Below, piece by piece: positions 1 through 13,814 of a DNA stretch of 15,285 bases. Location: the NCBI GenBank assembly GCA_016280695.1, contig JAEEHG010000245.1, positions 1-15,285 of the forward strand, given 5' to 3'. Position numbers and translations under genes: made by a program. This stretch comes from Solobacterium sp. GTDB lineage: Bacteria; Bacillota_I; Bacilli_A; Erysipelotrichales; Erysipelotrichaceae. The notes under the pieces are model-generated. The model was not told the origin of the DNA, did no database searches, and saw only the letters and a program-made list of their open reading frames with translations. Each line of letters starts with the position of its first letter. Within the stretch, counting starts at the first letter, position 1.

Positions 1-146
1 CTCTTCCCGCCGCCGGACGCGCCGATGATGGATACGACTTCGCCCTTATAGATTTTTTCGTTGACACCCTTCAGTACTTCCAGGTTTCCGAAGCTCTTAT
101 GCAGGTCGACGACCTCAATGAGCGGCTGTTTTTCTTTATCAGTCAC
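1..146 (-). CDS. Amino-acid ABC transporter ATP-binding protein, N-terminal part (cut by window edge)
   Basis: This is the start of the ATPase that powers the importer encoded just upstream. Only about 48 codons are inside the window; the gene runs off the left edge. The chosen start is a GTG at 146-144 that overlaps the permease stop codon. An AAAGGAGG ribosome-binding site lies about 10 bases upstream, inside the permease gene. The visible protein begins V(M)TDKEKQPLIEVVDLHKSFG, the usual opening of a polar amino-acid ABC ATPase (GlnQ/HisP group). It then reaches a Walker A P-loop, IIGASGGGK, right at the edge. Signature motif, Walker B and H-loop cannot be seen. The overlap with the permease indicates translational coupling in one operon. 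The family call is firm; the substrate is unknown. Confidence 0.9.
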   Translation of the reverse strand, partial: MTDKEKQPLIEVVDLHKSFGNLEVLKGVNEKIYKGEVVSIIGASGGGK

Positions 147-810
147 TGACGGCCAGCCTCCTTTCGAGCTGTCTTACACAGTATGTAAGCACGGTTGTCA
201 TGATCAGGTAGATACCGGCGATGATGAACAGCGGCTGCCAGATCAGGAACTTGTTGGCCAGCAGGACCCGGGTGTACATCAATTCGTACAGCATGAAGGT
301 TCCGGCCATGGAGGTTTCCTTGATCATGGCGATGTATTCATTTGCCAGCGCCGGCAGGATGTTCTTGATGGCCTGCGGCAGGACGATCCGGATCATGGTG
401 TTCCGGGCGCTCATGCCCAGGCTGCGCGCTGCCTCGGTCTGTCCGGCATCGACGGAATTAATGCCGCCCCGGATGATTTCCGATACATACGCGCTCGAGT
501 TCATGATCAGCGCGATCAGGACATATGTCTCTTTCGACAGGTTGTTCATGATCGGGAAGGCGATCGGCAGGAAGAAGTACGCAATGTACATCTGCACCAG
601 CAGAGGTGTGCCCCGCAGTACGGTCACGTAAATCCGCGCAATGGTCTGCAGCAGCTTCATCTTTGCCAGGCTCAGGAACGAGACCAGGCAGCCGAGAATA
701 CTGCCGAAGCCCACCGCAATGAACGAGAACTTCAGGGTGCCGATGGCACCTTTCAGGAAGATCGGCCAGTACTGCAGGAAGACATCAATAATACTCGGTC
801 CAAGACCCAT
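139..810 (-). CDS. Amino-acid ABC transporter permease (HisM/GlnP family)
   Basis: A 223-residue inner-membrane permease of the polar amino-acid ABC family, normal in length. Several hydrophobic helices are visible, starting near residues 22-48. The EAA cytoplasmic loop that docks the ATPase is present as GQTEAARSLGMSARNTMIRI, near residues 123-142. The family-typical VLRGTPLLVQMYI segment precedes it. The ATG at 810 is preceded by a GGAGGGA site lying in the end of the substrate-binding protein gene, only 6 bases away, so the genes are coupled. Only one permease gene is visible, so the transporter may use a homodimer; a second permease could lie beyond the left edge. Regulation should follow the upstream T-box leader. 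The specific amino acid cannot be read from the permease. Confidence 0.93.
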   Translation of the reverse strand: MGLGPSIIDVFLQYWPIFLKGAIGTLKFSFIAVGFGSILGCLVSFLSLAKMKLLQTIARIYVTVLRGTPLLVQMYIAYFFLPIAFPIMNNLSKETYVLIALIMNSSAYVSEIIRGGINSVDAGQTEAARSLGMSARNTMIRIVLPQAIKNILPALANEYIAMIKETSMAGTFMLYELMYTRVLLANKFLIWQPLFIIAGIYLIMTTVLTYCVRQLERRLAVSD

Positions 811-816
811 GGGATA

Positions 817-1842
817 TTATTCTCCCTCCAGGGCGATGATCTGGTCTTCAACGTACATCTGCTGCAGGGAGTTTGCCTGAGCCATGATGTGCTTGCCGAC
901 GAAGTCTTCGAGGGAGCTGTATTCAGCAACCTTGTCTGCCGGAACGATCAGGGTGTGGAAGGAAACGCTGCTGTCGCCGATGTAGCCGGTGCTCAGTTCG
1001 AACGCTTCTTCTCTGTCAGCCTTCCAGCCGAAACCGGAGAGCGCCAGGTCAACCTTGCCTGTATCAACCGCAGTCAGAACAGCGTTGAAGTCCATGGTTT
1101 CGATGACCAGCTTGACGCCGAGGCAGTCAGCGATGTACTTCGCGAGCATCATTTCGTTGCCGTAGACAACACCGTCTTCAGTGATGAATTCCGCTGCCGG
1201 GTAGTCCGGGGATGTCGCAATGACCAGTTCTCCCTTTTCCAGGATTTCCGCCAGCTTGCCGGTCGGGTTGGAGAGATCCAGCTCCGGCTTCACGAGGTCA
1301 GTTGTGTCAACCAGGTAGTTGTATGTGTCATCAATGGCGATATCTGTGAAGATCGGGACACCCAGGTCAGCCAGGATGCCTTCAGCTTCTTCGTCTTCTG
1401 TACCGGACTGCTTCTTGGCGATGGCAACCCAGGTTGTGTAGTAGGTGTGCGCGAAGTTCGGGTCAACCTTGGTGGTTGTCGCTGTCTTGATGCATTCGTT
1501 GACGGCGTTGATCAGGTCGGTTTCACCCTTCTTGGCAGCGGCGACATTGCCTTCATGCTGGCCGTACATTTCCAGGTCGAAGTTGATGCCGGTCATGGCG
1601 AAGGCGCCGTCGGACTGGTTGACATAGTTCTGGGCTGTTGTGCCGTCCAGGGCAACCGCGTCACACTTGCCGGATGCCAGGCCGAGGATGGCCTGGTCCA
1701 GGGTCGCGACCAGTTCGAGTTCGGTCTTCGGCTTGTCTTCCGGCTTGTCAGCTCCGCCGGAACCACCGGACGAACATGCGGCGAGGGAAACTGCCATGGC
1801 GGCAGCGGCTGTAATCTTCATGAGTTTACTGATTGCTTTCAT
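817..1842 (-). CDS. Circularly permuted amino-acid-binding lipoprotein of an ABC importer (SBP family 3)
   Basis: A 341-residue secreted lipoprotein that should capture the substrate for the importer. Residues 1-22 form a signal peptide ending in the lipobox SLAAC, with C23 as the lipidated cysteine, followed by a Gly/Ser linker. The domain order is reversed. Residues about 40-120 (ELELVATLDQAILGLASGKC, then DAVALD, and VNECIK) correspond to the C-terminal half of a normal SBP family 3 protein. Residues about 196-341 (TGKLAEILEKGELVIATSPD, then TGKVDLALSGF, ADREEAFELS and SLEDFVGKHI) correspond to the N-terminal half. Joining the C-terminus (SLQQMYVEDQ, IIALEGE) to residue 40 recreates the normal order. 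The binding-lobe Arg (R277) and the later Asp (D66) of the family are kept, but the usual GFDVDLA signature reads GNEMMLA. The start is supported by an AAAGGAG site 7 bases upstream. The family is certain; the permutation reading is strong. Confidence 0.92.
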   Translation of the reverse strand: MKAISKLMKITAAAAMAVSLAACSSGGSGGADKPEDKPKTELELVATLDQAILGLASGKCDAVALDGTTAQNYVNQSDGAFAMTGINFDLEMYGQHEGNVAAAKKGETDLINAVNECIKTATTTKVDPNFAHTYYTTWVAIAKKQSGTEDEEAEGILADLGVPIFTDIAIDDTYNYLVDTTDLVKPELDLSNPTGKLAEILEKGELVIATSPDYPAAEFITEDGVVYGNEMMLAKYIADCLGVKLVIETMDFNAVLTAVDTGKVDLALSGFGWKADREEAFELSTGYIGDSSVSFHTLIVPADKVAEYSSLEDFVGKHIMAQANSLQQMYVEDQIIALEGE

Positions 1843-1932: not shown

Positions 1933-1969
1933 AAAAATGCCGTCTCCGATGTTAATCCAGAGACGACAT
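1933..1969 (-). terminator. Intrinsic terminator of the T-box leader
   Basis: On the minus strand ATGTCGTCTCTG (1969-1958) pairs with CGGAGACGGCAT (1948-1937) around a 9-base loop, giving about 12 pairs including G-U. A run of five T residues follows (1937-1933). The 5' arm overlaps the region needed for the competing T-box antiterminator, so this is the regulated OFF structure. Confidence 0.9.
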
Positions 1970-2181
1970 ATATGACATATATCGCGGTACCACTCCAGTT
2001 GCGGGAGATGCATGCATCTCCGACCACTCTTTACCCATAACGTGGGGGACCCGTTCTTCCCTATACGTGTTCAGGAAGACTTCTCGCGGATGCGTTTCAC
2101 CTTTGCCGTTCCCGCTGGACTCGCACTCTGTTCCAGCTCGCTGATGGCCGTGCATCGGTTACTCTTCCGGTCACTGAATGT
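1933..2181 (-). promoter_or_regulatory. T-box riboswitch leader of the amino-acid ABC importer operon
   Basis: The conserved T-box AACTGGAGTGGTACCGCGAT is at 2000-1981. Upstream is a stem III hairpin, GGAGATG-catg-CATCTCC (2021-2004). Stem I carries the AGTGA element (2175-2171), a lower helix GGAAG/CTTCC (2168-2164 with 2078-2074), a middle helix GATGC/GCATC (2156-2152 with 2093-2089) and an apical helix CTGGA/TCCAG (2136-2132 with 2119-2115) enclosing a GTGCGAG loop. The internal loop between the first two helices has AGTA on one side and GAGAAGTC on the other, as expected for a specifier loop. The best specifier by position is GTC (Val, 2080-2078), but this is uncertain. Uncharged tRNA binding should stabilise the antiterminator and switch on the importer during amino-acid starvation. 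This leader fills most of the 467-base gap between the importer and the cupin gene. Confidence 0.93.
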
Positions 2182-2187
2182 AATCAT

Positions 2188-3527: not shown

Positions 3528-4715
3528 TCAGAGCATGTTCATGACAATACCGGCAAGAACAACGGACAGAATCGTAACCACGGTGATGCCGCCGAGGACA
3601 TACGGAACAGACAGTGTATCTTCGATGTAGGTCTTTTCATCCGGGGTCTGGCCGACTGCCTCCGCGACTTCACGGCAGATGACAACATTTGACGGGAAAC
3701 CCAGGAACTGCTCGACACCGATACCCATGGCCAGATCCTTGTCACCGACAAGCTTCCAGACCGGCAGCACATAGCTGATCAGGGCAATACCGGCAACCGC
3801 GAAGACGAACAGGACGACTGTCTGGAAAGCCATTGTGGCGAGGTCGGAAAGGTGAACATTGGCCAGGGACGGGATGATGCCGCCGAAGCAGGCAACCAGA
3901 ACCAGGCCGTATGCCTGGGAACGCTGCAGCGGACGCGGCGGGAAGAAACCGCCAAGACCGGAAACGGAACCGAGCAGCAGGCACCAGATCGAATAGTTGA
4001 CCGGGGTCAGCCCGCCGAGAACGCGTCCCAGCCATGCCGCACACGCAACAACAGCCATCATAATATTTGCGGTGTAAAGACCCGGGTGGGTTTCATAGAA
4101 CGGCTTTTTTGCATTCGGATCAGAAATACCGGTCTGCTTAGCCTTGAGTTCTGCCATGTATCTGGCCGGATCCTTGCGGAATTCAACCATCAGTTTGTTG
4201 GCATACTTCAGACCCATATTCGAGGCGATCGGGGCGCCGACGAACTTCTGTACGGAGTAGATGACTGCGCACAGGGCCGCAGCTGTAGTCAGACCCTTGG
4301 CAGCAGCCGCCTGGCTCATCAGCATGGTTGCCATGGCCGCGCCGTTGATAACCGGCATGCCGACGAGAACTGTGTCAAATCCGATAATCGGTGTGGCCAG
4401 CAGCATCATGATGCAGGATGCGAGCATGCAGGCCGCAGCCATAACAACATACCGCCATTCTTTAATCATCTGCTTGATATTGATTGTTGTGCCCATATTG
4501 AACAGGATCATTCCGCTGGCAAGATTAGCCATCTGGGTCAGCCCGGCCTGGTCAATCAGATCCTTCGGAAGCGTGTTGGTGAGAAAGCAGGCCAGAACAA
4601 TGAACATGACAATCATCATGCCGGACAGCTTTCCTTTAGTGAAATAGCCGACTACATCGCCTATTCCGAAAATCAGCAATACTACTGCGAAATAGAAATA
4701 CATTGAACTGAACAT
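3528..4715 (-). CDS. Multi-spanning membrane protein, putative organic-anion transporter of unassigned family
   Basis: A 395-residue, highly hydrophobic protein with roughly ten predicted membrane helices and one charged loop (residues about 170-212). The chosen start is the ATG at 4715, 7-8 bases after an AGGAGAGG site; an in-frame ATG 15 bases upstream overlaps that site and is less likely. Two segments share the pattern VxxFxGxP: SVQKFVGAP (154-162) and GVEQFLGFP (333-341). This suggests an internally duplicated fold with a paired re-entrant or substrate-binding element, as in many secondary carriers. Conserved-looking stretches NMGTTINIKQ and GMPVINGAAMAT lie in the first half. The gene has its own promoter and operator and sits next to the hydroxyacid genes, so import or export of a 2-oxo, 2-hydroxy or short-chain acid is plausible. 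The family is not recognised with certainty. Confidence 0.75.
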   Translation of the reverse strand: MFSSMYFYFAVVLLIFGIGDVVGYFTKGKLSGMMIVMFIVLACFLTNTLPKDLIDQAGLTQMANLASGMILFNMGTTINIKQMIKEWRYVVMAAACMLASCIMMLLATPIIGFDTVLVGMPVINGAAMATMLMSQAAAAKGLTTAAALCAVIYSVQKFVGAPIASNMGLKYANKLMVEFRKDPARYMAELKAKQTGISDPNAKKPFYETHPGLYTANIMMAVVACAAWLGRVLGGLTPVNYSIWCLLLGSVSGLGGFFPPRPLQRSQAYGLVLVACFGGIIPSLANVHLSDLATMAFQTVVLFVFAVAGIALISYVLPVWKLVGDKDLAMGIGVEQFLGFPSNVVICREVAEAVGQTPDEKTYIEDTLSVPYVLGGITVVTILSVVLAGIVMNML

Positions 4716-4732
4716 ATGACCTCTCCTCATAT

Positions 4733-6015: not shown

Positions 6016-7023
6016 TTATTTTTCAATCGGGTTCAGGCAGTATCTCGGGGTTTTCCCGTTCAGGAAATCCATAATGCCCTCCGCCGTAATATCAACCATG
6101 GCCCGCCGCGCCCGTTCGGAGTAGGCACCGACATGCGGGGTAAAGATGATGCGCGGGTACAGTTCAACCGCTTCCAGGACAGCCGGATCGGTGATTTCTT
6201 CCCCGGCATGCCGGTAGACGAACTGTTCCTTCTCAATGACGTCTGTCCCGTATGCCTGGATCCGGTTCTCCCGCACGGCTTCACACACAGCCGGCAGGTC
6301 CACCAGGTCACCGCGGGCTGTATTGACAATGATCACACCCGGTTTGACACCGGCCAGGAATTCCCTGTCGATCAGGTGGTAGTTTTCTTCCTTGACAAAC
6401 GGCAGATGCACCAGGATGATATCCGCTTCCCTGCGAATCTCTTCCAGATCGGTATAGGTCATGAATTCCCGGTTGGGTTCATAGGGGTTTTTGTCATACC
6501 CGAGGACCCGTGAACCCATGGCGGCGAACATCTTCGCGCTGAGGCTGCCGATATGCCCGACCCCGAGCACTCCGACGGTCAGGTCACGGATCTCCCGGAA
6601 GTGCGGGAAATTGACCCGGAAGTCCTTCTGCCGCATGTTGTCGGCAATCGCGAACAGGTTCCGGTTCAGGGCCATGGCCAGGGCCACGGCCAGCTCGGCA
6701 ATGACGTTCGGGTCGTAGTTCTGCACATTGGCAATTTCCACCCCGTGCCTTGTCGCGGCCGCGAAGTCCACCTGGCCGACACCGGTCATGCGCAGCACCA
6801 TCTTCCGAATGCCCGCCGCTTTCAGCAGGGCAAAGTAGTCATCTGTCAGTTTCAGGGTCGGATTCCCGCTCAGGACCAGATCGATATCCTGATAGGATGC
6901 AGGATCGAGGAACGCTTCCTGCGTATCGCACCATACCAGTTCGATTTCCTTGTCGGGGGTGAAGATTTCTCTGAGTGCCTGCATTTCAATATCCTGCATG
7001 GCGAAGACCAGAACCCGCTTCAT
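6016..7023 (-). CDS. NAD-dependent D-2-hydroxyacid dehydrogenase (LdhA/2-hydroxyisocaproate dehydrogenase-like)
   Basis: A 335-residue cytoplasmic enzyme that interconverts 2-oxo acids and (R)-2-hydroxy acids with NADH. The Rossmann dinucleotide motif is GVLGVGHIGS (151-160), and D177 (GYDKN) points to NAD rather than NADP. The catalytic triad is seen as R237 (NTARGDLVD), E264 (GTDVIEKE) and H297 (TPHVGAYS). Length and motifs match fermentative D-lactate and 2-hydroxyisocaproate dehydrogenases. An AGGAGGT site lies 6 bases before the ATG. In Had/Fld Stickland systems this activity makes the hydroxy acid that the CoA-transferase and dehydratase then use, so its nearness to those genes is meaningful, although it is in a separate transcript. 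The exact 2-oxo acid cannot be told. Confidence 0.93.
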   Translation of the reverse strand: MKRVLVFAMQDIEMQALREIFTPDKEIELVWCDTQEAFLDPASYQDIDLVLSGNPTLKLTDDYFALLKAAGIRKMVLRMTGVGQVDFAAATRHGVEIANVQNYDPNVIAELAVALAMALNRNLFAIADNMRQKDFRVNFPHFREIRDLTVGVLGVGHIGSLSAKMFAAMGSRVLGYDKNPYEPNREFMTYTDLEEIRREADIILVHLPFVKEENYHLIDREFLAGVKPGVIIVNTARGDLVDLPAVCEAVRENRIQAYGTDVIEKEQFVYRHAGEEITDPAVLEAVELYPRIIFTPHVGAYSERARRAMVDITAEGIMDFLNGKTPRYCLNPIEK

Positions 7024-9307: not shown

Positions 9308-10555
9308 TCAGCCGATCCGGACAGTGTCCGTCGCTTCTCCGGCCGCTATCATCGCGTCGATCTGTTCCTGTGAATAGCCAAGCTGTGCCAGCACTTCACG
9401 GGTATCCTGGCCAAGGAAATGGGCGGGCCTGTACGCCGGAAGCTCCGTGTCCTGGAACATGACCGGTGTGCGCACCATGGTCCGCTTCATGCCGTTGGGG
9501 AATTCCACATCAGTCAGAATGTCGCTCGCATATGCCTGCTCGTCACGCAGGATTTCATCCCAGGTCTGGCAGACCGCATAGGGCAGGTCCGCTTTTTTCA
9601 TCTGGGCAATCCAGTATTGGACATCATGGCTGGCAACTTCGGCGTTGAAGATCTCGTCCCATTCATCCAGATGCCCGTTGACCAGGTTGGTCTGCGGATA
9701 GAAACGCGGGTCATTAACCAGATCCTCCCGGCCGAGCGCATCCTTGACAAACCTGTTGAACAGCTTGTCATATGCCGGCAGCGAGAACATGAACCAGCGG
9801 CCGTCTGCCGTCTTCCGGGCAGAATTCAGCGGGTTGGTCAGTTCGGCCTTGCGGATCGGGTACTGGGTGGATGCATCGCCGTACTGGCTGGCAATGAGAT
9901 ACAGGGAAACATCCCATACCCCGCTGTGATACAGGCTGACAACCACCTTGTCACCCCGGCCGGTCTTCTCTGCCCGGTACAGTGCGGCAATCACCCCGGA
10001 TGCCAGGCTCATCGCAACCTGATGATCGCCGAAACCGGCCAGCGGCAGCATCGGTTCGCTGTCCCGGTCATACAGGGTGCCCATCACGCCGGAATGGGCA
10101 AAATACGCTGTAAAGTCAAAGCCCGGCAGATCCTTGTCAGGGCCTTTTTCACCATAGCCGGAAACAATCCCGTATACGAGTTTCGGATACTTTGCCTTGA
10201 GCGATTCGTAGTCAAGGGCTGCCCTTTCCAGTGCCGGCTGACGCCAGTTGGTCAGGAAAACATCACTCTGCGCAATCAGTTTTTCCAGTGCTTCCCGGCC
10301 CGCGGCGCTTTTTGTGTCCAGGGTGATGCAGCGCTTGCCGGTGTTCTCCAGGGTAAAACTCGTATCTTCGGCATCCCCGAACGGGCGGCCTTCATTGACC
10401 GCCGTGTAACGCAGATCATCCCCCCGGGGTCTTTCCACCTTGATGACATCAGCGCCGAGGTCAGCGAGATAGCGCGCACAGCAGGGTGCCGCAATGAACG
10501 TCGCCAGTTCCACAACCCGGACGCCCGCAAGGGGTCGGGTATTCATTTCTGTCAT
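9308..10555 (-). CDS. Family III CoA-transferase (CaiB/BaiF; HadA/FldA-like)
   Basis: A 415-residue cytoplasmic enzyme that moves CoA between an acyl-CoA and a free carboxylic acid. The N-terminal motif LAGVRVVELATFIAAPCCAR and the following LGADVIKVERPRGDDLR are hallmarks of the family. The catalytic aspartate is D147 in DLPGFDFTAYFAHSG, preceded by SGYGEKGP, very like HadA and FldA of amino-acid-fermenting clostridia. Those enzymes form the (R)-2-hydroxyacyl-CoA that the dehydratase consumes, using the pathway's acyl- or enoyl-CoA product as donor. The ATG at 10555 follows the dehydratase subunit B stop by 2 bases, with GGAGG upstream. Length is normal for the family. The acyl group cannot be identified from the sequence. 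Confidence 0.95.
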   Translation of the reverse strand: MTEMNTRPLAGVRVVELATFIAAPCCARYLADLGADVIKVERPRGDDLRYTAVNEGRPFGDAEDTSFTLENTGKRCITLDTKSAAGREALEKLIAQSDVFLTNWRQPALERAALDYESLKAKYPKLVYGIVSGYGEKGPDKDLPGFDFTAYFAHSGVMGTLYDRDSEPMLPLAGFGDHQVAMSLASGVIAALYRAEKTGRGDKVVVSLYHSGVWDVSLYLIASQYGDASTQYPIRKAELTNPLNSARKTADGRWFMFSLPAYDKLFNRFVKDALGREDLVNDPRFYPQTNLVNGHLDEWDEIFNAEVASHDVQYWIAQMKKADLPYAVCQTWDEILRDEQAYASDILTDVEFPNGMKRTMVRTPVMFQDTELPAYRPAHFLGQDTREVLAQLGYSQEQIDAMIAAGEATDTVRIG

Positions 10556-10557
10556 AA

Positions 10558-11679
10558 TCAGTCCTCCATCATATCCCTGAATGTTTCAATGATCGTTGCG
10601 GCCTGTTCATGGTTTTCCATCTGCCTGTCCGTCTCTATGCTCACAAACGGCAGTCCGGCCGCCGTGCAGGCCCGGCGGATCAGCGGGTAATCAAACTCTT
10701 CCGGGTCACAGAACTTGGTAAGAATCATCAGCACGCCCCGGGCCCCGGCAGCCTTGGCAGTTTTCACCAGCGCTTCAACCCGTTTCTTTTCCGGATCATA
10801 CAGTACGGAGCAGCAGTTACGGGCGGAGAATTTCCGGGCCAGGGAGTACAGCGCATCTTCACCGATGACGCTGTCTGTCCGGTACTGGCGGCTTTCTGCC
10901 GCAACATCGTCCGCAACAATCTGCAGGCCGTTTTCGTCCAGAATCTTCAGCAGGCCGGGCGCGTCCGCCAGAATCCCGGTTACGGCAACCGGAATCTTTT
11001 TTTCAGTTCCGGCACTGCTGTTCTTCAGTTCATCCAGGAGTTCCCGGCAGAGTCCGCAGTGTTCTTCCCGGCACAGAAACCAGGCGCTTTTGAAGATCGC
11101 TGAACGCTCCGCGGCTGTGATTTCCGGATGCGCTGCCAGTTCGGCAGAAACCTGCCGCATCAGCGCGTTATGTTCGTTGTAGAGTGCCATGGATTCTTTC
11201 AGGCGTTCCTCACTGAAAGAACTGCCGGTAATCTGTTCCAGGTCCCGGATGACCCGGCGGTATCCGGCCACCGTGAAATCCAATGCGTATTCCGGTTTCC
11301 GGTTCTGCGGATAGGTCATCGGGATAAACGGAATCTCCGGTACAGCATATTTCCAGTTCTCCCCCAGGACTTTCAGGGAGTCACACAGGCTCGGGACAAG
11401 GATTGCGCTGACCCCGTCATAAACGCCGCGCATGCCCAGTTCCGTGATGGACTGGATGATGGCGCACAGAAACGCCGGATAGTATTTCTTGGCTGCGTTG
11501 AGCTGCGTGTCGCCGCCCCAGGCCCCCATCGGCACCAGGCCCATCGAATGAATGATCTCTGCCGGGGTATAAACCGGGGCGGTCAGGACAATTTTCCGTC
11601 CTTCCGCAAGATACCGCTCTTTCAGGGCCTGCGGGTTCTCTGCCGCTGCCTGCATTTTTGCCAGAACATCACTGATCAT
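10558..11679 (-). CDS. 2-hydroxyacyl-CoA dehydratase, subunit B (HadC/HgdB-like)
   Basis: A 373-residue subunit of the heterodimeric Fe-S dehydratase that removes water from (R)-2-hydroxyacyl-CoA by a ketyl-radical mechanism. Family segments include PVYTPAEIIHSMGLVPMGAW near the start and PQNRK in the middle. The candidate [4Fe-4S] ligands are C72 (PAFLCAIIQS), C99 (LVPSLCDSLK) and C324 (ILTKFCDPEEFDYP), spaced as in this family. A second cysteine group around residues 205-213 (CREEHCGLC) is additional and may not be a cluster site. The ATG at 11679 has AAGGAGG upstream and begins 2 bases after the partner subunit. Length matches HadC-type subunits. The enzyme is expected to be strictly oxygen-sensitive. 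Substrate unknown. Confidence 0.94.
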   Translation of the reverse strand: MISDVLAKMQAAAENPQALKERYLAEGRKIVLTAPVYTPAEIIHSMGLVPMGAWGGDTQLNAAKKYYPAFLCAIIQSITELGMRGVYDGVSAILVPSLCDSLKVLGENWKYAVPEIPFIPMTYPQNRKPEYALDFTVAGYRRVIRDLEQITGSSFSEERLKESMALYNEHNALMRQVSAELAAHPEITAAERSAIFKSAWFLCREEHCGLCRELLDELKNSSAGTEKKIPVAVTGILADAPGLLKILDENGLQIVADDVAAESRQYRTDSVIGEDALYSLARKFSARNCCSVLYDPEKKRVEALVKTAKAAGARGVLMILTKFCDPEEFDYPLIRRACTAAGLPFVSIETDRQMENHEQAATIIETFRDMMED

Positions 11680-11681
11680 TG

Positions 11682-12914
11682 TCAGGCCTCCTTCCGGGAC
11701 TGCATGATTTCCGTCAGTCCCTGTACCCGGGTGTCATACTGCGCTTCCGAAAAGTTGCGCGGGTCTGCCTGGTCGCCGTCAAAACTGACAACCGGAATCT
11801 CACAGGCCGCGCCGATCTGGCGGCTCATCTCATTCATGAAGCCGCTCCACAGTTTGCAGGACCGGTTGGTGTGGACCAGCAGACCTTCCACATGATTGTC
11901 CTGACAGAGCCGGATCCGTTTATCCCGGGCATATTCCAGATTGATCGCGTTGGGCACTTTTGCGTACGCCCTGCACATGCCGTCAAAATCCTCATAGATG
12001 AAACCGAACGCATCCGCGTAGATCGTTGTAACCATATTGATGCCCCGGTCCCGCAGACCGCGGGAAGTCACCCGCAGCCACGGCCAGCACGCGATACCCT
12101 CAAACATGATCCGGTGCTGTTCCTCGCCGCGGTAGGTGCTGATTCCTTTATTATGGTTTTCTTCGTATTCCTTCAGCAGTGTTTCCATTGCTTCGGCAGC
12201 TTCCGGTTTCCCGCGGGCCGTCACCATCACGGCCATATGATTCAGCAGGTCAAAGCCGTTGAACGGGGACGGCACATACCTGGCCATAGCCGTTGCGGCC
12301 AGCCAGGCCCGGCTTGTCCTGCCGGAGATTTCCATGACTTCCTGATAACGGTCCCAGCTCCATTTTTTTCCGGTTATCTTTTCCAGCTGCGCAATGGCAT
12401 CCAGGAACTGATTCCGGATATATGCAGTTTCCGCGTCACTGACCTCATAGTCAGGATTAAAGGGGATATCAATCATGATCATCGGGATCTGCAGTTCCCG
12501 GGAAAGATTCTCATACCATTTGATCATGCAGCTGCAGATATTGCTGCAGCACAGGACATAATCCGGCAGCGGCATCGGCTGTTCTTCCGCTTCCGCCCCG
12601 GAAGCATATGCCAGGGAAATCCTTGCATAGGCGCAGATATCGTTGGAATATCCCATTCCTTCTGCAATTGAGCACATGCGTTCGCCGCCGCCCCTTGCCG
12701 CGATCCCGGCCGCCTGGTTTTCCGGATAGCATACATGCAGTCCCAGTGTTTCCGGTATTTCAACCGGGAAGTTGCTGGCGCACCAGCCGATCAGTTCCCC
12801 CCGTTTCTTCGCCTCAGCCACATCATCATATGCCTGCTTCGCAATCATATTCAGTTTGTACTTTGCTGAGGCAGGATCCGGGGCCGGACGTGGTTTTCTG
12901 ACTTCTTCACTCAT
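11682..12914 (-). CDS. 2-hydroxyacyl-CoA dehydratase, subunit A (HadB/HgdA-like)
   Basis: A 410-residue partner of the subunit above; each subunit should carry one [4Fe-4S] cluster, with the substrate-binding one here. Conserved segments are YSNDICAYARISLAYA (C94), LCCSNICSCMIKWYENLSRE (C122, C123, C127, C129) and, near the C-terminus, VHTNRSCKLWSG; the three cysteine sites match those expected. The NFPVEIPETLGLHVCYPEN region is also typical. The ATG at 12914 overlaps the activator stop by 8 bases and has AGGAAA upstream. A longer open frame reaching 13055 is rejected because it lies wholly within the activator gene. Length agrees with HadB-type subunits. Together with the activator it forms the core of the pathway. 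Confidence 0.94.
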   Translation of the reverse strand: MSEEVRKPRPAPDPASAKYKLNMIAKQAYDDVAEAKKRGELIGWCASNFPVEIPETLGLHVCYPENQAAGIAARGGGERMCSIAEGMGYSNDICAYARISLAYASGAEAEEQPMPLPDYVLCCSNICSCMIKWYENLSRELQIPMIMIDIPFNPDYEVSDAETAYIRNQFLDAIAQLEKITGKKWSWDRYQEVMEISGRTSRAWLAATAMARYVPSPFNGFDLLNHMAVMVTARGKPEAAEAMETLLKEYEENHNKGISTYRGEEQHRIMFEGIACWPWLRVTSRGLRDRGINMVTTIYADAFGFIYEDFDGMCRAYAKVPNAINLEYARDKRIRLCQDNHVEGLLVHTNRSCKLWSGFMNEMSRQIGAACEIPVVSFDGDQADPRNFSEAQYDTRVQGLTEIMQSRKEA

Positions 12915-13698
12915 GTTCTTTTTCCTTTCCTGCTTTTTCCATCGCGTACAGTGCGGCCCCAAGGGCGCCGGCAAACTGGGCCAGCGGAGAATACAGGATT
13001 TCTGTACCCAGTTCCTCTTCCATTGCCCGGCGGACAGCTCCGTTGTTGGCAACACCGCCGCTCATGCATACCTTTTCTTCAACACCCATGCGGCGCACCA
13101 GGCCGGCAGTCCGGCTTGCGACAGACCCGCAGATTCCTTTGACAAGCGCCGGAATCTCCGCCCCGGCAGCGAGCTGTGAAATCACTTCCGACTCCGCAAA
13201 TACCGTGCATGTGCTGGAGATCCGCAGCGTCTGCGTGGCTTTGGCGGCTTCCTGCTCCAGTTCCGAGACATCCATCTGCAGGATTCCTGCCATGACTTCA
13301 AGGAAGCGGCCGGTGCCGGCGGCGCATTTGTCGTTCATGACAAAATCCGTCATCCTGCCATGGCTGTCCAGACGGATGACTTTTGCGTCCTGACCACCGA
13401 TATCAATGACCATGCGGACATCCGGAAACAGGAACGCGGAGCCTTTCGCGTGGCAGCTCAGTTCGCTGACCTGGCTGTCCGCTTCCGCATAGGTCCGCCG
13501 GCCGTATCCTGTCACCACCGTATAATCAATGTCTTCATCCTGCAGTCCGGCCGCCGCCAGAAGTTCCTTCTTAACCGCTGCCGGGCCGCTTGTGCCGATG
13601 CCGGCATGTACCAGGTGCTGTGCAAGTATTGCCTGTTCTTCGTTCATGAGCACGCCTTTGGACGTGGTTGAACCGATATCAATTCCCATAAAGACCAT
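12907..13698 (-). CDS. 2-hydroxyacyl-CoA dehydratase activator, ATPase (HadI/HgdC-like)
   Basis: A 263-residue homodimeric ASKHA-fold ATPase that injects one high-energy electron into the dehydratase. Motifs: phosphate 1 MGIDIGSTTSKGVL at the N-terminus; phosphate 2 MVIDIGGQDAKVI; the first cluster cysteine in NDKCAAGTGRFLEVMAG; the second in VKGICGSVASR; and the adenosine motif MSGGVANNGAVRRAME. The two cysteines per monomer should hold one [4Fe-4S] cluster at the dimer interface. The ATG at 13698 (MVFMGIDIG) is chosen because AAGGTG lies 8-10 bases upstream; the longer frame from 13779 would include the operator and -10 region. It is the first gene of the operon. In many clusters the CoA-transferase precedes it, so this order is a variant. 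Confidence 0.95.
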   Translation of the reverse strand: MVFMGIDIGSTTSKGVLMNEEQAILAQHLVHAGIGTSGPAAVKKELLAAAGLQDEDIDYTVVTGYGRRTYAEADSQVSELSCHAKGSAFLFPDVRMVIDIGGQDAKVIRLDSHGRMTDFVMNDKCAAGTGRFLEVMAGILQMDVSELEQEAAKATQTLRISSTCTVFAESEVISQLAAGAEIPALVKGICGSVASRTAGLVRRMGVEEKVCMSGGVANNGAVRRAMEEELGTEILYSPLAQFAGALGAALYAMEKAGKEKEHE

Positions 13699-13725
13699 GT
13701 TCGTCACACCTTTTGTTTCTTCTTG

Positions 13726-13745
13726 TATACTTGTCGACAAGTATA
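13726..13745. promoter_or_regulatory. 20-bp perfect palindrome, probable GntR/FCD operator of the dehydratase operon
   Basis: TATACTTGTCGACAAGTATA is identical to its reverse complement. The core TTGTCGACAA has the GT-N2-AC pattern of FadR/FCD-type GntR sites. It lies 5 bases downstream of the predicted -10 box, at the likely transcription start, a classic repressor position. The operon encodes a GntR/FCD regulator as its fifth gene. Confidence 0.75.
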
Positions 13746-13750
13746 TACAT

Positions 13751-13759
13751 AATATATCA
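13751..13759 (-). promoter_or_regulatory. Extended -10 promoter of the dehydratase operon
   Basis: TGATATATT on the minus strand (13759-13751) fits an extended -10 (TGn plus TATATT). The -35 region is poor, as is common for extended -10 promoters. It lies 52 bases upstream of the activator ATG. Confidence 0.55.
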
Positions 13760-13814
13760 CGGCAGATAAATCGCTGCACAGCAGGATTCGTCCGGAAACG
13801 TTGATAAAGCAGAA

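Follow-up and report, generated by a model that had tools for sequence, protein, structure and literature searches.

The window analysed here, a 15,285-nucleotide stretch of contig JAEEHG010000245.1, comes from a Solobacterium metagenome-assembled genome (MAG; 1.74 Mb in 291 contigs, 77% complete) and carries a gene for a lipoprotein of an amino-acid ABC importer. The gene lies between a T-box leader and the permease gene. Its product is a family-3 amino-acid substrate-binding protein (SBP) whose halves stand in circularly permuted order: what forms the C-terminal half of ordinary SBPs (C half) follows the signal peptide, and what forms their N-terminal half (N half) ends the chain. A preliminary description of the window had proposed such a permutation, which is borne out by order-swapped hidden Markov model (HMM) matches, close unpermuted sisters, structure comparison, and the operon. 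The segments it quoted lie where it placed them, with ATLDQAILGLASGKCDAVALD at residues 46 to 66, then VNECIK, and the segments that normally begin the domain in the C-terminal half of the protein.

Pfam aligned residues 206 to 289 with positions 1 to 84 of the 132 in PF00497 (SBP_bac_3; E 5.1e-19, 68.8 bits against a cut-off of 26.4), and by Pfam the rest of the profile had no match in the window protein. Two PF00497 matches in swapped order had been expected; Pfam returned only this one stretch, and the two swapped stretches emerged from phmmer and from HMMs of the separate halves. With phmmer against PDB, residues 199 to 334 aligned with positions 7 to 141 of chain 4h5f_A and residues 35 to 119 with positions 140 to 220, the latter match being weak alone (independent E value [i-E] 0.039). 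The half HMMs were built from the two halves of 48 unpermuted relatives, excluding one protein discussed below (P0114) and two distant paralogues. They matched the window protein with the C half preceding the N half, each once, near-complete and without overlap. A collinear SBP match spanning the whole protein was seen by none of Pfam, phmmer, and the half HMMs, and this reading is rejected. Membership in SBP_bac_3 is indicated by the Pfam score, the presence of both halves, and the presence of the ligand-site Arg and Asp; the ordinary order of the halves is absent. A weaker Pfam match to PF12974 (Phosphonate-bd; residues 233 to 322, 31.6 bits against a cut-off of 27) overlaps the PF00497 half, and we set this family aside as a related fold only.

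The swapped order is shared by many relatives. We applied the half HMMs to 138 database proteins, the union of the best 120 of 702 and the best 120 of 623 matches, and found the C half first in 111 and the N half first in 26, with one fragment (P0112) holding one half only. With 111 of the 138 proteins swapped, the order can be put down neither to chance nor to a faulty assembly of one contig; the many contigs involved rule out assembly error. Among 63 SBPs from related loci and the window, 38 have the C half first and 25 the N half first. All 51 unpermuted sequences run against the half HMMs matched in ordinary order, as the 48 used for HMM building must by construction. Three permuted-like SBPs cut by contig ends (L039, L041, and L064) were left out of this count and of the trees. 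The halves join cleanly: the C-terminus of P0001 reads ..VEDQIIALEGE and its body begins with TELELV.., while P0114 reads ..VEDQIIALDPNNTTELELV...

Table 1. Features of the importer locus, in window positions
Feature	Position	Strand	Basis or remark
T-box leader	1956..2183	-	RF00230 at 97.9 bits, above the cut-off of 93; specifier loop GAA-A-CGC-A, taken to specify arginine
Permuted SBP_bac_3 lipoprotein gene, 341 residues	817..1842	-	Open reading frame, Pfam, phmmer, half HMMs
Signal peptide and lipobox, residues 1-23	1774..1842	-	Alignment, sequence
Half C-terminal in ordinary SBPs, residues 40-150	1393..1725	-	C-half HMM, i-E 2.6e-47
Linker from old C-terminus to old N-terminus, residues 151-172	1327..1392	-	Alignments
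Half N-terminal in ordinary SBPs, residues 173-340	823..1326	-	N-half HMM, i-E 2.6e-90
Permease, BPD_transp_1	139..810	-	Pfam (PF00528, E 2.4e-21)
ATP-binding subunit, start only, cut by contig end	1..146	-	Walker A by eye

Both halves contribute conserved positions. In 85 aligned permuted proteins, the lipobox Cys23, Asp66 of the C half, and Arg277 of the N half are invariant, and the latter two align with 4h5f. We take Asp66 to be the position of the family's Asp for the ligand amino group and Arg277 that of its Arg for the ligand carboxylate, after LAO/HisJ. Relative to the ordinary fold, the chain starts midway through the second half, runs to the old C-terminus, continues through a linker of about 22 residues to reach the old N-terminus, and ends at the loop beyond which ordinary relatives carry on. 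Model confidence and order-dependent alignments suggest indirectly that the two halves close one usual two-lobed fold. The best structural matches of the permuted model are amino-acid SBPs, with arginine-binding proteins near the top, among the matches listed; PfVFT1 (5jkq_B) can also be aligned over the two halves (177 residues at model positions 105 to 340, root mean square deviation 4.8). Under this model, the membrane anchor would act through lobe 2, rather than through lobe 1 as in the ordinary form, and the shift could alter the hinge, the tether, and permease docking. The lipid tether of the permuted form is short, with a median of 10 residues between the lipobox Cys and the body (measured in the 137 of 148 permuted proteins that had a lipobox match), compared with 16 residues to the first conserved N-half residue in the unpermuted form (49 proteins).

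The T-box leader links the operon to arginine. We set the specifier register on leaders of the same genome that precede genes read by eye as MetRS, AlaRS, ValRS, SerRS, IleRS, and metN; those before HisRS, TrpRS, and LysRS, also named by eye, aligned less cleanly. The genome has eleven T-box matches, six of them above the cut-off, including that of the window, and we examined nine of the eleven places plus the window's own. Of these nine others, eight stand before genes reading as aminoacyl-tRNA synthetases and one before metN. Leaders could be read in 54 of 63 loci (34 permuted, 20 unpermuted), the other nine being mostly short upstream. The antiterminator motif occurs in 48 of the 54, and an Arg codon (CGC, CGU, or AGA) is readable in a 7- or 8-base register in all 49 specifier loops, window included. 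Three observations weigh against this reading. Because loops of 7 and 8 bases both occur, every loop taken alone offers another codon in the other register, and Arg is the reading common to all. In five unpermuted leaders (GAACGCGC), a reading as Ala comes close. Finally, the T-box motif was not seen in 4 of the 34 permuted loci (L015, L025, L035, and L037) or in 2 of the 20 unpermuted ones (L049 and L063).

The operon is conserved around the SBP gene irrespective of its order. Wherever more than 1.5 kb of sequence follows the permease start, an ATPase gene follows the permease (57/57; 35 permuted and 22 unpermuted loci). An M14 carboxypeptidase is present in 27 of 32 permuted and 19 of 20 unpermuted loci with enough sequence, PF00246 being confirmed on three of these carboxypeptidases. 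The T-box would turn the operon on when uncharged tRNA-Arg accumulates, the carboxypeptidase of the relatives' operons could possibly release arginine from peptides, and the predicted two-lobed clamp would bind arginine between its lobes with residues of both halves and hand it to the permease. Judging from the T-box and the operon, the ligand is probably arginine. A permuted SBP for a different ligand, for example another basic amino acid, is an unlikely alternative that nonetheless deserves some weight: a T-box reports regulation rather than ligand, and the listed solved relatives bind various amino acids. Against it stand the uniform Arg reading of the leaders, the carboxypeptidase partner, and the high rank of arginine-binding proteins in the structural lists.

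We delimited the permuted form in genomes as well as in databases. The 63 related loci come from MAGs and uncultured bins, many from ruminants, mostly labelled Solobacterium or Erysipelotrichaceae, with a few labelled Lachnospiraceae, Oscillospiraceae, or more broadly. Matches spanning both halves were found in 33 of 315 genomes of the window's order (17 from the window's own genus, and 14 and 2 from two others); one of these begins at residue 79, at a contig start, and none of the 33 contains an internal stop. Another genome (G271) matches at residues 163 to 340 only, in an open frame of 188 residues. In a phylum-wide sample of 392 genomes, all five matches at 1e-40 fall within the window's family. 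The permuted form is real and well delimited, with three genera of a single family containing it. In 14 genomes, each belonging to the window's genus, we found a close unpermuted form (E 4.2e-64 or better), its order checked by a second downstream match in eight and by HMM in six; the permuted form was not found in any of these 14. If the two forms were independent, the probability of no overlap between 18 permuted genomes (G271 included) and 14 unpermuted ones among 70 genomes of the genus would be 0.009; this value was calculated only once the pattern had been noticed, and it takes no account of relatedness or of incomplete genomes. Seven permuted genomes hold another SBP, of ordinary order (E 1e-56 to 1e-59), in all cases a distant paralogue 79 to 100% identical to that of loci L016 and L029.

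The unpermuted sisters (P0113 to P0138, L042 to L063, and L065) run from signal peptide to N half to C half and share 56 to 73% identity with the window protein over the best segment, among the matches listed. One of them, L054 (L054:1-10180), occupies the same site as the window gene. Its flanks are 82% and 87% identical to those of the window, its permease and ATPase start 77%, and its leader, together with roughly 25 initial codons that encode the signal peptide and lipobox, 90% at the DNA level. Its SBP body, however, is unpermuted, and identity drops just past the lipobox. Upstream, L054 has an insert of about 2 kb; an inserted sigma-70-like gene and a neighbour without a Pfam match lie on that side. 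It belongs to genome G257 (SBP 100% identical), in which the permuted gene was not found. Locus L016 combines both orders in one row: a permuted SBP, the distant unpermuted SBP (the pair at L016:7992-9960), permease, ATPase, and M14 carboxypeptidase. Permease docking would tolerate both orders if both of these SBPs serve the one permease. In L029 (L029:5336-8993), where the paralogue also lies beside the permuted gene, the latter comes after the other transporter and no permease stands behind it. A single clade of the permeases from permuted loci is rejected by the approximately unbiased test (p-AU 0.008); part of this result comes from L016, whose permease stands behind the second SBP, the unpermuted one, and clusters with the L029 permease.

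We used trees of the whole protein and of each half to examine the origin of the permuted order, leaving four long branches (L054, L060, L061, and L063) out of the main and half trees and thinning near-identical rows. The permuted proteins and P0114 together form a clade at 100/99. P0114 is a single protein from one metagenome contig, with two member sequences; its order is ordinary, but each half is most similar to that of permuted proteins (up to 77% and 83% identity), and its C-terminal tail (..AIAKVQSGTADEAALQIVGD..) matches their linker and is absent from the other 32 unpermuted rows printed. The maximum-likelihood tree nests P0114 among the permuted proteins (92/83), and a quick tree places it outside with support of 16. 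Without P0114, the permuted proteins form one clade in 0% and 22% of 200 bootstrap trees in two analyses, which counts against their sharing one clean origin and leaves it unsupported; such a clade is not rejected (p-AU 0.495 and 0.426). P0114 may have reverted from a permuted ancestor, or it may represent the last ordinary branch before the event. A change of chain order in both directions within the family, with P0114 possibly reverted, is doubtful in our estimation; if it did occur, P0114 and L054 would together portray the mature SBP body as a swappable cassette behind a fixed leader. We propose that an unpermuted gene gave rise to the permuted order once or nearly once. Tandem duplication followed by trimming is the usual route to circular permutation, and plausibly the route taken here; a duplicated intermediate was not seen, the protein search having allowed up to 1.75 times the query length and none having been aimed at fused double SBPs of about 600 residues.

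The halves could instead have different histories, if pieces of two different SBP genes had been fused into a chimera. The best N-half tree lacks the clade of permuted proteins and P0114 (two changes away; 8% of 200 bootstrap trees). Holding this clade is not rejected by the N-half data, however (p-AU 0.51, the held tree being 0.44 log-likelihood units better), and the C-half tree contains it at 95/94; a shared history of the halves is therefore supported. Both halves also resemble the one sister, P0114, and each is near-complete and present once, without overlap, so that we regard a chimera as very improbable. Least likely of all is a decayed or non-functional product (a pseudogene, misassembly, or orphan protein): the window's genome is a fragmented MAG and the permuted gene of L029 has no permease after it, but the reading frames are free of internal stops, the lipobox and ligand-site residues are invariant, the operon is conserved, and the contigs are many and come from several assembly series. 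Taken as a whole, the explanation of a permuted, two-lobed family-3 SBP for arginine import, under tRNA-Arg T-box control and of nearly single origin, has in our estimate a probability of roughly 0.87.

Other genes of the window look like amino-acid fermentation. Positions 9308 to 13779 hold a CoA-transferase-like gene, two 2-hydroxyacyl-CoA dehydratase-like subunits, and an activase; their best matches are (R)-2-hydroxyisocaproyl-CoA dehydratase models, with the NCBIfam cut-off passed by the activase only. A D-2-hydroxyacid dehydrogenase-like gene lies at 6016 to 7023. For a membrane-type protein of 400 residues (3528 to 4730), Pfam gave nothing up to E 1 and NCBIfam nothing up to 0.001.

The inference of a natural circular permutation often relies on proteins that are very distant from each other. 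In the present family, the two forms have kept their similarity, reside in matching operons under one tRNA-Arg control, and in one genome pair occupy the same chromosomal site, making this a rare case of a reshuffled transport protein, here from a gut bacterium, with close unshuffled relatives extant. The family could serve as a test bed for how a permutation arises and becomes fixed, how a lobe-2 rather than lobe-1 tether affects transport, and how strongly permease docking depends on chain order. It also illustrates how single-domain annotation hides permuted SBPs, given that Pfam matches 84 of the 132 profile positions.

The solved proteins closest in sequence are 4h5f_A and 4i62, amino-acid SBPs of Streptococcus pneumoniae; both halves match the window protein, but these SBPs have the ordinary order and align at full length only with an unpermuted sister. 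The sisters belong to the same family and operon type (T-box, SBP, permease, ATPase, and M14) and differ in the order of their halves. The glycine-betaine SBP OpuAC (2B4L) can be aligned collinearly with some 210 residues of the permuted model but belongs to another family: PF04069, which we take to be the OpuAC family, had no match to the window protein up to E 1. By title and abstract, among the matches listed in literature on natural permuted SBPs, OpuAC/ProX, and PfVFT1, we recognised no report of a permuted SBP_bac_3 protein. That two natural SBP permutations are already published lessens the surprise. The first, in PMC2395249, comprises circular-permutation relations among the glycine-betaine-binding proteins 2B4L, 1R9L, and 1SW1, and with molybdate-binding proteins; identity is under 24% for any pair, which leaves no close unpermuted sister there. 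The second is TpMglB-2, a glucose-binding protein of Treponema pallidum (proposed "Cluster Bc") that still binds its ligand and changes shape (PMC4990184). Like the window protein, it is a natural circularly permuted lipoprotein SBP, and its authors name tethering as a possible reason for the permutation; it differs in its Type I fold, in which the three leading N-lobe strands have been relocated to the end, in a fourth hinge cross-over, and in a moved part with only 13% identity to E. coli MglB (PMC4990184).
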